DNA of 37,102 nt from a virus. Made by a program: the position numbers and the translations under genes. The stretch spans positions 1 through 37,102 of IMG/VR virus record IMGVR_UViG_3300021963_000332. One strand, given 5' to 3'. The notes below the pieces were generated by a model. The model ran no database searches and had not been told where the DNA came from. It was given only the letters and a program-made list of their open reading frames with translations. This document shows positions 909 through 20,253 of the stretch, piece by piece. Numbering within the stretch: the stretch's first letter is position 1; every line of letters begins with the position of its first letter.

Positions 909-1110
909 CACGCTTCCAAACTATGGCGTTAGCCATATTGATTGTTCCATACACGGCTGCGCCGAGTATGAATCCGTATTGTTGCGTAGTTACTGCGAAC
1001 GCCACCCACAGGCACTCGTTACCCCAAGCGATAACCCATCCCCACCAGCGTTTACGCCCAATGAAAAACAGGGCTGTCACGCCAATCAGGCTGAGAATAT
1101 AGGGCATCAT
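874..1110 (-). CDS. Small membrane protein of unknown function
   Basis: This is a 78-residue protein with two or three hydrophobic stretches: residues 4-17 (YILSLIGVTALFFIG), 23-42 (tryptophan-rich), and 46-64. Basic clusters (RKRWW, KRDAKKEK) suggest a cytoplasmic C-terminus. Two adjacent ATG codons (1110, 1107) are possible starts and no strong ribosome-binding site is visible. It overlaps both the primase stop and the RusA start, so it belongs to the replication operon. I do not recognise a family. Confidence 0.75.
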   Translation of the reverse strand: MMPYILSLIGVTALFFIGRKRWWGWVIAWGNECLWVAFAVTTQQYGFILGAAVYGTINMANAIVWKRDAKKEKPAILH

Positions 1111-2021
1111 TTGGTGAACACTCTGACCACAAGTTTATCAATCTCTAGGTCACCGTTAGTCCTGAGATGGTATTTGCCCCACCGTCTGTCTGCGTCCGTG
1201 ATTATGACCTTGGATGCGGATGGTGATAGACCTGACTTGGCACACTCGTACGCAAGTTTGGTGAGTGTGCTGGAACGGTCACGCTGAGGCAGCGGACCGT
1301 CACGCCATATAACTTTCCCGAGCGGAGACAAACCAGTGAGCGCATCAATCAGGTTCTCGTTGGCGGACAAGTCCAGTCGTGGCGGTGCGACAACCGTTGG
1401 TGGTCGCCATAGTGCAGCCAGTTCCATAATCAGATGTGATGGTGTACGGGTTGCTACGGCACGACCAACGAATTCCTCCAAGGGCATCGGTTCTAGGTCG
1501 TCGCCGAGTATGCGTCGTTTGTCGGTGGAAATATCTGATGCATCCCAATATGGTAGGCGAACATAGTTGCCGAACTGGTTCGGTTGCAAAGTTTCTTGCT
1601 TAGGGTTCACTTCTCGGGCAGGGTATTCTGCAACCTGATGAGCGCAAAGTAGCATCCGTCGCATAGCCCACGCTGGAACTGGTTCCACTGCGAACACCCA
1701 AATGTGGTAGCCCTTGGAGCGTGACCGCTCCAAATATGAGACAACGCCTGCTGCTCGTAGCGATTCTTTGATACTGAGCGCAGCGTGGATGTCGTCTACA
1801 TCTATGTCCGAGCATCCCCATACGGTCATCCATTCGCCTTCGTGTTGAAACATCGGATATATGCCGATGGGTGTAACGCCCCTCAGGTGTTGTGAATATG
1901 TTTCGTTGGTGACGGGTTCTTTTACGCACCCACCTTCCTCCGAGCCGTATGCGTCAGTTCTGCCCCTGAATAGGGCTGCGAACCGCAAATCAACTAACGG
2001 ATATGTTGCTGTGTTTGTCAT
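1107..2021 (-). CDS. Archaeo-eukaryotic-type primase (AEP, TOTE/PrimPol-like)
   Basis: The product is 304 residues. The three AEP signatures are in order: hhhDxD as CSDIDVDD (Asp72, Asp74), the SxxxH motif as SKGYHIWVF (Ser102-His106), and a third block GNYVRLPYW (151-159) after EVNPKQ. These bind the metals and nucleotide for primer synthesis. The fold is that of a stand-alone AEP primase; C-terminal residues after about 220 may help bind template or helicase. ATG 2021 is chosen because GGAGG lies seven bases upstream; the ATG six bases earlier is too close to it. It overlaps the helicase stop (TAATG). No DNA polymerase is encoded, so this enzyme might also extend primers, which is inference. 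Confidence 0.85.
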   Translation of the reverse strand: MTNTATYPLVDLRFAALFRGRTDAYGSEEGGCVKEPVTNETYSQHLRGVTPIGIYPMFQHEGEWMTVWGCSDIDVDDIHAALSIKESLRAAGVVSYLERSRSKGYHIWVFAVEPVPAWAMRRMLLCAHQVAEYPAREVNPKQETLQPNQFGNYVRLPYWDASDISTDKRRILGDDLEPMPLEEFVGRAVATRTPSHLIMELAALWRPPTVVAPPRLDLSANENLIDALTGLSPLGKVIWRDGPLPQRDRSSTLTKLAYECAKSGLSPSASKVIITDADRRWGKYHLRTNGDLEIDKLVVRVFTK

Positions 2022-3100
2022 TACCATTCCTCCATATTTGCCATTTCTAGTTTTGGTTGGTCAATTACAACTGGTGCAGTGTCGTCGCCACCGAACTGTG
2101 AGGGCGAATGCCCATCCTGTAAACGCATCAGACGACCTGTGCCGAACTCAATTTCATAATCCATATCATCAAGCAGCACACTCGCTGGACGCTTACATTT
2201 CACAAGGTTCACGGTCAGCGTATGCTGGTGCATACGCAACGACCACTTGAGCGTATCCAGACGCTCCAGTAGACGCTCCGTGTTCGTAGCCCTGTCCAGT
2301 TTTTCCTCAATCTCACGGATTTGTGCTTCTATCTCAAACCGTTTACGACGCACACCGATTATGTGGGTAGCCTGCTGTTCACCGCCGTACGCACCTGAGG
2401 ATATCGTTTGGCGTTTACCGTCCGCACCTGAGGTGCGTGACGACTGGTGCAACACTAGCATCGGGATGTTGTGGCGTTTGCCGAACGCTTTCAGCGTGTT
2501 GGCTTTGGATGGGACATCCTCGCCACCGCCTGTGAGCAGTTCCAGATAGTCAAACACCAGCAGGGATGGTTGCCCCCACATTTCTCGCACCTCACCCAAC
2601 GCTCGTTCCATATCAGCCAAACTGAGAGTTTGGTCAAATACGGCAAGGTTCGGATAGTCGGTTGTCGCCGTGCGACGCAACAGTTCTATGGCGTGAGGCT
2701 TGTTGTTTATGACTTCTTGTTCCAACATATGCGCATCCACACCGTGGGTCACGCTCACCAGTTTGATGAGTGTGAGTTGGCGTGGTTCATCGGGACAGAA
2801 ATATATGACTGGTTTCTCTTTGTTGGCGTTCAGAATCTGCATCAGAAACAAAGTTTTGCCTGAGTGGCTGTACCCGTTTATGAGACATAGTTCGGATGGT
2901 GCGATGCCACGCATCTGAGCGTCAATCTCGGGGAACCCGAGGTATACACGCTCGTCTGGTGTCTGCGCCCAATGAACGAACTCATCGGCTGCTTTGACAA
3001 GAGGTTGGAAGTATTGATGGGTGGGCATAGACGAATCTGGGACGGGGAGGTTCTCTCCCCGTCCCAAAGCCGACCAGCGTCCCGAATAGTCGGGAGCCAT
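2021..3100 (-). CDS. DnaB/RecA-fold replicative helicase
   Basis: The product is 359 residues. It has a Walker A motif GYSHSGKT (76-83), a Walker B LLVFDYLELL (about 180-189) and a sensor segment PMLVLHQSSR, as in DnaB and gp4-type helicase domains. The usual N-terminal primase-binding domain is absent, so this is a helicase core only. A charged helical segment around residues 245-275 follows the ATPase core. It should unwind the phage fork alongside the primase encoded directly downstream. The start is ATG 3100; the reading frame is open to a TTG two codons upstream. It lies one base after the preceding gene's last codon. Confidence 0.9.
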   Translation of the reverse strand: MAPDYSGRWSALGRGENLPVPDSSMPTHQYFQPLVKAADEFVHWAQTPDERVYLGFPEIDAQMRGIAPSELCLINGYSHSGKTLFLMQILNANKEKPVIYFCPDEPRQLTLIKLVSVTHGVDAHMLEQEVINNKPHAIELLRRTATTDYPNLAVFDQTLSLADMERALGEVREMWGQPSLLVFDYLELLTGGGEDVPSKANTLKAFGKRHNIPMLVLHQSSRTSGADGKRQTISSGAYGGEQQATHIIGVRRKRFEIEAQIREIEEKLDRATNTERLLERLDTLKWSLRMHQHTLTVNLVKCKRPASVLLDDMDYEIEFGTGRLMRLQDGHSPSQFGGDDTAPVVIDQPKLEMANMEEW

Positions 3101-6646: not shown

Positions 6647-6663
6647 AAACACCTCCAGTGTTT
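6647..6663 (-). promoter_or_regulatory. Shine-Dalgarno in palindromic hairpin (DUF3846 gene)
   Basis: The minus strand reads AAACAC-UGGAG-GUGUUU, six pairs with the loop holding GGAG. The UGGAG loop is shared with the starts at 7412 and 7691. Confidence 0.8.
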
Positions 6664-6675
6664 CATAGTCAAACT

Positions 6676-6742
6676 GGACTCATCAGCACCAGCATTTACT
6701 GGTGGACACCGCAGGGCAAGGAGTCCCCACGGTGTTTCGTCC
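6676..6742 (-). ncRNA. Hammerhead ribozyme, type II (copy A)
   Basis: Minus-strand order: GGAC (stem II 5'), GAAA, stem III CACCG/CGGUG with a further GGG/CCC inside, UC cleavage site, stem I CACCAG/CUGGUG (loop UAAAUG), CUGAUGA, GUCC (stem II 3'). All invariant core bases are present. Cleavage is predicted between 6705 and 6704. Stem II is the open stem, which makes it type II. The ribozyme starts about one base after the predicted transcription start and ends 30 bases before ATG 6645. Confidence 0.95.
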
Positions 6743-6760: not shown

Positions 6761-7015
6761 CTAGTGTGACGCTTTAGTGTACCGCTTCGCCCTAGCCAAC
6801 CTCCGAGCCTGAATCCGTTTATAGGACGCAACCTCATCGGCAACCTGATTGATGCCAACCGCAAACGGTGCCCAAGCCAGCACAACCAACGCCAACCCAA
6901 GCATCGCCACGCCGTACGACAGGTCGTTGATGTTCGTGATGACAAGGATTGTCACCGCCAAACCGCAAAGCCCCGAAATTGTCGCCAAAGCGACACTCGT
7001 GATGATGTATTTCAT
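6761..7015 (-). CDS. Small two-helix membrane protein
   Basis: This is an 84-residue protein with a hydrophobic helix at about 4-26 and another at about 35-55 joined by NINDLSYG. The C-terminal tail is strongly basic (RIQARRLARAKRYTK) and probably cytoplasmic. Start ATG 7015 follows AGGAGG by ten bases. The first bases overlap the stop of the gene upstream. Function unknown; a holin role is possible on topology but its place in the early operon argues against it. Confidence 0.72.
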   Translation of the reverse strand: MKYIITSVALATISGLCGLAVTILVITNINDLSYGVAMLGLALVVLAWAPFAVGINQVADEVASYKRIQARRLARAKRYTKASH

Positions 7016-7017
7016 AA

Positions 7018-7272
7018 TTATTTCACCTCCTTCAACAATTCCCAAAAGTAATCCTGCAAACCCCAACGAATGTCGTCGTGAACCTGCTCCACCACATAGT
7101 CACGAGTTTCGTGAGTAGCAGCGTATGCGTTCCAAACTTCTCGGGGCACAAGCGGTACATCGCAACCGTTCTCGTCCACCAACTCAAAGTTTTCTGCATC
7201 CCACCACTCAATGATGATTTCATCATCGGGATTATAGTGCTTCAGTAACTCACGCACTTTGCTGACTTTCAT
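7018..7272 (-). CDS. Hypothetical small phage protein
   Basis: This is an 84-residue acidic protein. It opens KVSKVRELLKHYNPDDEIIIEWW, a pattern common in uncharacterised phage proteins. No catalytic motif is seen. GAGGAG precedes ATG 7272, which overlaps the preceding stop (TAATG). Confidence 0.75.
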   Translation of the reverse strand: MKVSKVRELLKHYNPDDEIIIEWWDAENFELVDENGCDVPLVPREVWNAYAATHETRDYVVEQVHDDIRWGLQDYFWELLKEVK

Positions 7273-7412
7273 TATTCCATCTCCTCATAGTTGTCGTCCT
7301 CAATTTCATTGAGGTTTGTGTAAATGATAACCTGCCCATCGTTGTCAGTATCCAACGAATAGTTGGGCAAAAGTTTTGCCAATTCTGTTCTCAACCAATA
7401 ACCGTTTATCAT
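7272..7412 (-). CDS. Tiny acidic protein (46 residues) behind hammerhead B
   Basis: This 46-codon ORF starts at ATG 7412, with GGAGG in a hairpin loop immediately upstream and hammerhead copy B 29 bases further up. It is acidic, with a C-terminal EIEDDNYEEME. Its stop overlaps the next ATG. The strong ribosome-binding site and matching leader design support it as a real gene. No family is recognised. Confidence 0.7.
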   Translation of the reverse strand: MINGYWLRTELAKLLPNYSLDTDNDGQVIIYTNLNEIEDDNYEEME

Positions 7413-7431
7413 AAACACCTCCAGTGTTTAT
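7411..7431 (-). promoter_or_regulatory. Shine-Dalgarno in palindromic hairpin (46-residue gene)
   Basis: The minus strand reads AUAAACAC-UGGAG-GUGUUUAU, eight pairs. The 3' arm runs into the start codon, so the folded form would hold both the ribosome-binding site and the first two bases of AUG. Confidence 0.8.
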
Positions 7432-7441
7432 AAGTCGGGCT

Positions 7442-7508
7442 GGACTCATCAGGTACCACACATATGGTACTACACGAAGCGCACACAACTACACTCCGTG
7501 TTTCGTCC
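7442..7508 (-). ncRNA. Hammerhead ribozyme, type II (copy B)
   Basis: Minus-strand order: GGAC, GAAA, stem III of nine pairs (7500-7492 with 7481-7473, two G-U), UA cleavage site, stem I GUACC/GGUAC with an eight-base loop, CUGAUGA, GUCC. The cleavage base is A rather than C, which hammerheads allow. Cleavage is predicted between 7471 and 7470. It lies between the 56-residue gene (stop 12 bases upstream) and the 46-residue gene. Confidence 0.94.
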
Positions 7509-7520
7509 TAAAACTGGGGA

Positions 7521-7691
7521 CTAAACAGTAGCCTCCACGAATTGTGGATGCTCAATCTTGTAAGCATCGCCACGCAGTGACTCCGCCAAAATGAGTTGCC
7601 CACTCCACGGCAAAATGCCGACCACGAAATAGCACTCACCCTCCAAGTGAAGCCCCTTGCGGTAACGCACCACATCACCAATCGCAAACAT
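7521..7691 (-). CDS. Small hypothetical protein (56 residues) between hammerheads B and C
   Basis: This 56-codon ORF starts at ATG 7691 behind a GGAGG hairpin and hammerhead copy C. The sequence (FAIGDVVRYRKGLHLEGECYF) looks like a small beta-barrel, possibly SH3- or KOW-like, but this is only an impression. It is flanked by self-cleaving elements on both sides, so after processing it would be a monocistronic message. A longer ORF to 8026 in the same frame would start inside the upstream gene and run through the ribozyme, and is rejected. Confidence 0.72.
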   Translation of the reverse strand: MFAIGDVVRYRKGLHLEGECYFVVGILPWSGQLILAESLRGDAYKIEHPQFVEATV

Positions 7692-7709
7692 AAACACCTC
7701 CAGTGTTTA
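7691..7709 (-). promoter_or_regulatory. Shine-Dalgarno in palindromic hairpin (56-residue gene)
   Basis: The minus strand reads UAAACAC-UGGAG-GUGUUUA, seven pairs, nearly the same as the element at 7411-7431. Together with the ribozyme it forms a duplicated leader cassette. Confidence 0.8.
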
Positions 7710-7720
7710 CAAGCCGTTCT

Positions 7721-7784
7721 GGACTCATCAGATACCGTAACACGGTATGACATCGGGAGCAACGACACTCCCGATGTTTCGTCC
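7721..7784 (-). ncRNA. Hammerhead ribozyme, type II (copy C)
   Basis: Minus-strand order: GGAC, GAAA, stem III CAUCGGGAG/CUCCCGAUG (nine pairs), UC cleavage site, stem I AUACCGU/ACGGUAU (seven pairs, loop GUU), CUGAUGA, GUCC. Every pair is Watson-Crick. Cleavage is predicted between 7749 and 7748. It begins ten bases after the stop of the CobT-like gene and ends 29 bases before ATG 7691. Confidence 0.97.
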
Positions 7785-8661: not shown

Positions 8662-8680
8662 CAAAACCTCCTAGGTTTTG
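8662..8680 (-). promoter_or_regulatory. Shine-Dalgarno in palindromic hairpin (CobT-like gene)
   Basis: The minus strand reads CAAAACC-UAGGA-GGUUUUG, seven pairs with the UAGGA loop. Confidence 0.8.
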
Positions 8681-8690
8681 GGTTGTGTGT

Positions 8691-8718
8691 CCCATCGGGG
8701 CAGAATTGCCCCGATGGG
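8691..8718 (-). promoter_or_regulatory. Strong leader hairpin upstream of CobT-like gene
   Basis: The minus strand reads CCCAUCGGGGC-(AAUUCU)-GCCCCGAUGGG, 11 perfect pairs. It takes the place a hammerhead occupies in the neighbouring leaders, but the CUGAUGA and GAAA core elements are absent. It is followed by an A/C-rich linker and the hairpin ribosome-binding site. Confidence 0.75.
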
Positions 8719-8735
8719 TATTACGGTATTCGGTG
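8717..8735. repeat. GGTATT repeat shared with leader at 3606
   Basis: The plus strand reads GGTATTACGGTATTCGGTG. It matches 3606-3624 at 17 of 19 positions. Both copies lie between a stable hairpin and other leader parts of minus-strand genes that lack a hammerhead. Confidence 0.7.
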
Positions 8736-10036: not shown

Positions 10037-10052
10037 CAACCTCCTGAGGTTG
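10037..10052 (-). promoter_or_regulatory. Shine-Dalgarno in palindromic hairpin (AAA+ gene)
   Basis: The minus strand reads CAACCU-CAGG-AGGUUG, six pairs. It differs from the others in its loop but keeps the self-complementary ribosome-binding site. Confidence 0.75.
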
Positions 10053-10066
10053 TGTGTAGTCGGACT

Positions 10067-10126
10067 GGACTCATCAGACACCGTGAAACGGTGTGACATT
10101 GGGGCAATAGCCCCAATGTTTCGTCC
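10067..10126 (-). ncRNA. Hammerhead ribozyme, type II (copy D)
   Basis: Minus-strand order: GGAC, GAAA, stem III CAUUGGGGC/GCCCCAAUG (nine pairs, loop UAUU), UC cleavage site, stem I ACACCGU/ACGGUGU (seven pairs, loop UUC), CUGAUGA, GUCC. All pairs are Watson-Crick and the core is complete. Cleavage is predicted between 10095 and 10094. It ends 33 bases before the AAA+ ATPase start and begins nine bases after the stop of 10136-10480. Confidence 0.97.
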
Positions 10127-10485: not shown

Positions 10486-10500
10486 CAACCTCCTAGGTTG
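10486..10500 (-). promoter_or_regulatory. Shine-Dalgarno in palindromic hairpin (gene at 10480)
   Basis: The minus strand reads CAACC-UAGGA-GGUUG, five pairs, preceded by an A/C-rich linker (ACAACACAACA). Confidence 0.78.
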
Positions 10501-20240: not shown

Positions 20241-20253
20241 ATCCTAGGAGGAT
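20241..20253 (+). promoter_or_regulatory. Shine-Dalgarno in palindromic hairpin (major capsid gene)
   Basis: The plus strand reads AUCC-UAGGA-GGAU, four pairs with the same UAGGA loop used by early genes, but arms that fit only each other. It is five bases before GTG 20257. Confidence 0.7.

Follow-up and report, generated by a model that had tools for sequence, protein, structure and literature searches.

We consider it likely that the element called copy B here (Table 1) is an intact and probably active type II hammerhead ribozyme that acts as a co-transcriptional separator of the leftward polycistronic early mRNA of a tailed phage. That copy B is a complete type II hammerhead, and one of exactly four in this phage, is confirmed; it is a genuine and intact member of this type, probably active, with a rare but known base at the cleavage site. 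Its structure and covariation, its orientation, its position between a stop codon and a Shine-Dalgarno sequence, and the conservation of junction ribozymes in the genus are shown by the analysis; we infer cleavage in the cell, protection of the new RNA ends, and a benefit to the phage.

The window, that is, the whole stretch of DNA that was analyzed, is an entire IMG/VR virus record, linear and 37,102 bases long. Its plus strand encodes terminase, portal, scaffold, and major capsid protein, and its minus strand encodes a primase, a DnaB-like helicase, a PD-(D/E)XK nuclease, RusA, an AAA ATPase, and proteins of unknown function. The primase (1107-2027, minus strand) is of the archaeo-eukaryotic kind and matches the primase domain of the TOTE conflict system. 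Searches for DNA relatives of the window among phages gave just short, weak matches, and its capsid protein is at most 42.5% identical to those of named phages; four related phages (L124, L131, L132, and L133) have capsid proteins 94-97% identical to it. The 39 distinct window proteins that were compared with Pfam, PHROGs, or both (a subset of the open frames) yielded no RNA ligase. The deposited phage genome MW202803.1 (L156), which has a related capsid gene, encodes an annotated RNA ligase and contains one type II hammerhead, at 1947-2006, overlapping an annotated gene start at 1985.

Table 1. Coordinates of the hammerhead copies, the parts of copy B, and the neighboring genes in the window
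Feature	Position	Strand	Remarks
Type II hammerhead ribozyme copy B, whole	7442..7508	-	GGAC GAAA, stem III, UA cut, stem I, CUGAUGA GUCC
Stem II 5' strand GGAC of B	7505..7508	-	pairs with GUCC 7442-7445; conserved A flank at 7509
Stem III hairpin of B	7472..7501	-	12 bp including A15.1-U16.1; predicted new 3' end of upstream product
Predicted cleavage site of B	7470..7471	-	after A17 (plus-strand 7471); 3' product from 7470; established hammerhead mechanism
Stem I hairpin of B	7453..7470	-	6 bp + closing U-G; loop opens with conserved U; predicted downstream-product 5' end
Core CUGAUGA of B	7446..7452	-	
Hairpin with Shine-Dalgarno and start codon of 46-aa gene	7411..7431	-	
Hammerhead copy A	6676..6742	-	H17 = C; before DUF3846 gene
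Hammerhead copy C	7721..7784	-	H17 = C; between DUF7192 gene and 56-aa gene
Hammerhead copy D	10067..10126	-	H17 = C; before AAA ATPase gene
56-aa gene	7521..7691	-	upstream of copy B; stop 12 nt before B
46-aa gene	7272..7412	-	first cistron after copy B
84-aa gene	7018..7272	-	second cistron after copy B
84-aa hydrophobic protein	6761..7015	-	third cistron after B; start chosen by inspection

Hammerheads are recognized by the core letters CUGANGA and GAAA together with UH at the cleavage site, and copy B, which lies in the sense orientation with the early genes, has all of them. It also shows the type II permutation (an open stem II, with hairpins on stems I and III), and the three helices around the core are kept by compensatory change. 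The earlier note had described a complete hammerhead core here, and the core letters, the fold, and a covariance model all agree with it, on the minus strand, which the note had not named. Its pair counts were too low: stem I, given as only five pairs, is GUACCA/UGGUAC with six (seven with the closing U-G), equal to that of copies A, C, and D, and stem III, given as nine pairs with two G-U, has 12 consecutive pairs counting A15.1-U16.1, three of them G-U. The MFE fold is the hammerhead, taking up 53% of the ensemble, and both the loop-I U and the stem-II A, which are conserved, are retained. Pairing of loop I with the 3' tail in a pseudoknot of 4 bp or more is not enriched over swapped tails in the class (copy B being judged by eye); this does not exclude type II membership because the pseudoknot is printed for the majority of members, not all.

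The same note counted four hammerheads in the window, and four there are, all on the minus strand. The core word CTGATGA occurs 14 times against 3.8 expected, and just four occurrences complete the structure; 200 dinucleotide shuffles of the window yielded no such structure under a strict rule and three under a looser one. The covariance model R1, which comprises 70 of 103 eligible copies, all from other phages and with this genus excluded, finds copies A-D at 48.8-62.2 bits (E <= 1.4e-12) and nothing else up to E 10. Copy B is the weakest match (48.8 bits, E 1.4e-12, the others scoring 52.5-62.2 bits), and for all four copies the MFE fold is the hammerhead. The Rfam family RF02276 (Hammerhead_II) gave no window match at its gathering score or up to E 5; we reject the verdict of no hammerhead that Rfam alone would give, as a limit of the family model and not of the sequence. 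The junction between the AAA ATPase and DUF7192 genes (about 8690-8720, minus strand) is without a hammerhead, and by eye it holds a strong hairpin like the stem III of its neighbors, possibly another mRNA end or a relic.

Copies of this kind are found well beyond the window. Scanning viral contigs for GGACGAAAC-N28-58-CTGATGAGTCC gave at least 119 stretches, and, applied to 84,980 prokaryote species with one genome per species, the scan yielded 18. Among the distinct matches listed, 128 of 134 have at least four perfect pairs in each of stems I and III, compared with 4 of 2,680 shuffled inserts. The 119 listed loci contain at least 220 copies, at least 204 of them distinct, and reversed sequences contain none. 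Since the loci were chosen for one match to a GGAC/GTCC pattern, stem II usage and the number of copies per locus are biased; other paired stem II sequences nevertheless account for 54 of the 204 copies among the matches listed. In those matches the first loop base is U in 98% of the 132 copies with a 17-nt stem I hairpin, and A precedes stem II in 96% of copies. The loop I/3'-tail pseudoknot stands at background there (17/204, 8.3%, vs 8.1% with swapped tails) and was rejected as the tertiary contact, being enriched neither overall nor in the GGAC class (10/150 vs 8.4%); the other stem II classes show a mild excess (7/54 vs 6.7%). By analogy with types I and III, in which a reverse-Hoogsteen pair forms the contact between stems I and II (PMC6155905), we infer that the conserved U and A may form this contact. 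Several contigs are rich in type II copies within arrays of small genes: L111 (G007) with 12, L094 (G009) with 10, L005 (G012) with 9, and L107 (G008) with 8. The assemblies labeled Phycicoccus jejuensis (L138) and Streptomyces iakyrus (L140) have three hammerheads with matching spacing and equal model scores, reflecting either a shared phage or contamination of one assembly.

Counts of the position of copies relative to genes use those with enough flanking sequence among the matches listed (193 of 204, with 190 and 186 in a further count). A Shine-Dalgarno sequence plus start codon, under a rule that favors hosts with Shine-Dalgarno sites, follows within 50 nt in 157 of 193 copies, as against 11 of 191 antisense and 323 of 2,010 random placements (sense vs antisense, Fisher p about 5e-57). 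An upstream stop codon, counted for any long open frame and not for annotated genes, lies within 20 nt in 126 of 193 copies compared with 199 of 2,010 random placements. When open frames of at least 70 codons are considered, 110 of 190 copies (58% vs 3.2% at random) have a stop whose end lies no more than 3 nt inside or 5 nt upstream of stem II; in 35% it lies at -1 to +1, and it often supplies the conserved A beside stem II; these figures, too, refer to the matches listed.

Of four multi-copy contigs compared with cultured phages by DNA search, three were without a match and one led to Streptomyces phages. Three cultured Streptomyces phages have 8, 8, and 7 copies, 21 of the 23 lying outside annotated genes (1,273 of 11,500 random placements do so) and the remaining two overlapping them. 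An annotated start follows the 3' end of each of the 21 intergenic copies after 11-16 nt; on the upstream side, the annotated stop is no more than 14 nt away for 9 of them and at a greater distance for 12. We found no earlier report of these Streptomyces-phage ribozymes in the open-access literature on phage and type II hammerheads.

The window follows the same layout, with ribozymes at 4 of roughly 16 same-strand early junctions (counted by inspection). Upstream stops precede the ribozyme by 18 (A), 12 (B), 10 (C), and 9 (D) nt, and downstream starts follow it by 30, 29, 29, and 33 nt, respectively, leaving room for little besides a hairpin presenting the Shine-Dalgarno sequence. Such short perfect hairpins are found on the minus strand at 6647-6663, 7411-7431, 7691-7709, 8662-8680, 10037-10052, and 10486-10500 and on the plus strand at 20241-20253, the major capsid gene being among the genes so preceded; under a loose rule the window has 26 candidates vs 1-13 in 20 shuffles. 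We considered this ribosome-binding hairpin as a ribozyme-specific part and rejected it because similar ones precede genes without a ribozyme (starts 10480 and 8664). The hairpins could be a binding site for a regulator.

Within the genus, the B locus was aligned for five phages, namely the window and its four relatives. The covariation test is not circular because the loci were chosen by protein similarity and not by ribozyme, though the structure tested was that of the window copy. In this alignment 96.5% of cells are paired, and both partners have changed in 8 of 23 pairs, six of these 8 being among the seven pairs of stem I; none of 500 shuffles reached the covariation score. The unpaired cells (4 of 115) belong to three stem III pairs close to the loop. 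Stem II is invariant within the genus and covaries only in the wider set; compensatory change was also seen in a set whose sequences had been chosen for pairing. For copy A, 100% of aligned cells are paired.

A ribozyme follows DUF7192 in 5/5 genus genomes and precedes the DUF3846 gene in 5/5; in the stretches examined of L129, L134, and L135, which are more distantly related, there was no match. What comes after the DUF7192 ribozyme is variable. In L132 and L133 this ribozyme has a B-like stem III and is followed by a gene resembling the window's 84-aa gene, in L131 it precedes a 58-aa gene, and the window and L124 have an extra ribozyme and a 55-56-aa gene. By eye, the 84-aa gene at 7018..7272 has a start resembling that of the gene which immediately follows the B relative in L124, L132, and L133. 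Such exchange of neighbors is what one would expect if the ribozymes were hitch-hiking junction modules (ribozyme, ribosome-binding hairpin, and small gene) that are exchanged between phages by recombination and need not cleave. We find this very unlikely, as core and pairing are preserved despite sequence divergence, which counts against drift without a use for the fold.

The earlier note was also correct that copy B has A before the cut (plus-strand 7471) where the other three copies have C. Among the matches listed, 195 of 204 distinct type II copies carry C17 and 9 carry A17. In all four related phages the best match to B's stem III carries C17; the B relative in L124 is matched by stem III and by neighboring genes, whereas for L131-L133 the copies were equated with B by the likeness of stem III. 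With C in four relatives, the simplest reading is that A17 arose on the window's lineage; judged from these sequences, it looks derived.

From its pair counts for stems III and I, the note had argued that B may cut more slowly and set a different level of processing for a tiny 46-residue gene. That argument finds no support: stem I matches that of the other copies in length, stem III is long and stable, and a review names GUA, along with GUC, as the two natural triplets of highest intrinsic rate (PMC3138052). Slow cleavage through a short stem I is thus rejected, and the segment after B holds three cistrons (46, 84, and 84 aa) before ribozyme A. Copy B might still be a tuned slow copy in which A17 lowers the rate, so that less message is separated at this junction; no other copy in the window has A17, the four relatives of B carry C, and its model score is the lowest of the four copies. 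We regard this as improbable, given that the triplet is described as a high-rate one (PMC3138052), that B's stems are as long as those of the other copies, that the conserved loop-I U and stem-II A are kept, and that the rare A may itself account for part of the lower score. Much the same differences, position 17 and three G-U pairs in stem III, would be all that speaks for a decayed, inactive copy. Against this, the core letters are all intact, stem III is paired over all its 12 bp in the window's own row, and stem I shows covariation across the relatives; nothing supports decay, and we hold it to be highly improbable.

For an intact copy B acting as a separator, the sequence of events would be as follows. 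The RNA would fold as RNA polymerase passes and then cut itself after A17, splitting the message of the 56-aa gene from the segment with the 46-, 84-, and 84-aa genes. Together, copies A, B, C, and D would divide the early transcript into shorter pieces. The cuts are predicted after plus-strand positions 10095 (D), 7749 (C), 7471 (B), and 6705 (A), so that the segment from D to C would hold the AAA ATPase gene and the DUF7192 gene, that from C to B just the 56-aa gene, that from B to A the 46-, 84-, and 84-aa genes, and that beyond A everything from the DUF3846 gene on. The open helix being stem II, the cut has a closed hairpin on either side. On its upstream side the product would end in hairpin III with a 2',3'-cyclic phosphate, and on its downstream side the product would begin with a 5'-OH followed by hairpin I; both the site of the cut and the end groups follow established hammerhead chemistry. 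With a hairpin at each new end, both should be somewhat protected from nucleases, an argument from geometry and chemistry, and each segment could decay and be translated on its own terms. The copies could also cut too slowly to matter, or without consequence. Against the separator reading stand the ribozyme-free majority of early junctions, the lack of matches in L129, L134, and L135, and the few unpaired stem III cells in the B alignment.

The closeness of stops and starts suggests that ribosomes may compete with folding. On this reading, which we think rather doubtful, these type II hammerheads would be ribosome-gated separators: a ribosome terminating at the upstream stop, or one initiating at a downstream start so near that it reaches over the 3' core, would mask the ribozyme, and only ribosome-free junctions would be cut. 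Gating would be looser in the window because the stops there are 9-18 nt away. If it held, separation of the mRNA would be tied to translation of both neighbors, and the loop-I U and stem-II A, replacing the pseudoknot, would be a form built in for gated use.

A role of hammerheads in separating phage cistrons was proposed in 2011 by Perreault et al. (PMC3088659), according to whom tandem bacterial and prophage hammerheads cut long transcripts in vitro and one array did so also in E. coli. The type II hammerheads described there share with the window copies the open stem II, the hairpins I and III, and the core, as well as the clustering of copies flanking single genes or short blocks. Their printed consensus, from which our subclass is set apart, has a loop I/3'-tail pseudoknot of potentially at least 4 bp in the majority, whereas in the subclass it stands at background. 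RF02276 has the same permutation and core, but its model has a 2-bp stem II and the subclass a 4-bp one; its gathering score is reached by 2 of 48 copies from our finder in ten loci, 0 of 4 in the window, and 0 of 23 in the Streptomyces phages.

Type I and III hammerheads in viral contigs have the same core and also occur in phage-like contigs. Among the matches listed, a start lies within 50 nt in 24 of 65 type I and 5 of 18 type III copies (25/129 unclassified), and at least two exact-pattern copies are present in 6 of 120 type I/III loci vs 18 of 119 type II loci. Types I and III are thus less tied to starts than type II, to which differences in host ribosome-binding sites may contribute. 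The HHphage of Halovirus HF1/HF2 is, likewise, a hammerhead variant just upstream of an early viral gene, with a mapped transcript 5' end within three nucleotides of the cleavage site; it differs in being a core variant with one reported site and an archaeal host (PMC3088659). The role of prokaryotic hammerheads has been termed an open question (PMC6155905, PMC10085705).

What is added here is a type II subclass with a 4-bp stem II, a 6-bp stem I, a near-invariant loop-I U and stem-II A, and no enriched pseudoknot, packed between stop codon and Shine-Dalgarno sequence at many phage gene junctions, including those of cultured Streptomyces phages. The standard RNA library (Rfam) misses most of these elements. 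Copy B offers a useful natural C17-to-A17 variant in a defined place. As the subclass occurs up to 12 times per contig, between stop and Shine-Dalgarno sequence, and in cultured Streptomyces phages, the idea that these ribozymes separate phage mRNAs becomes directly testable.
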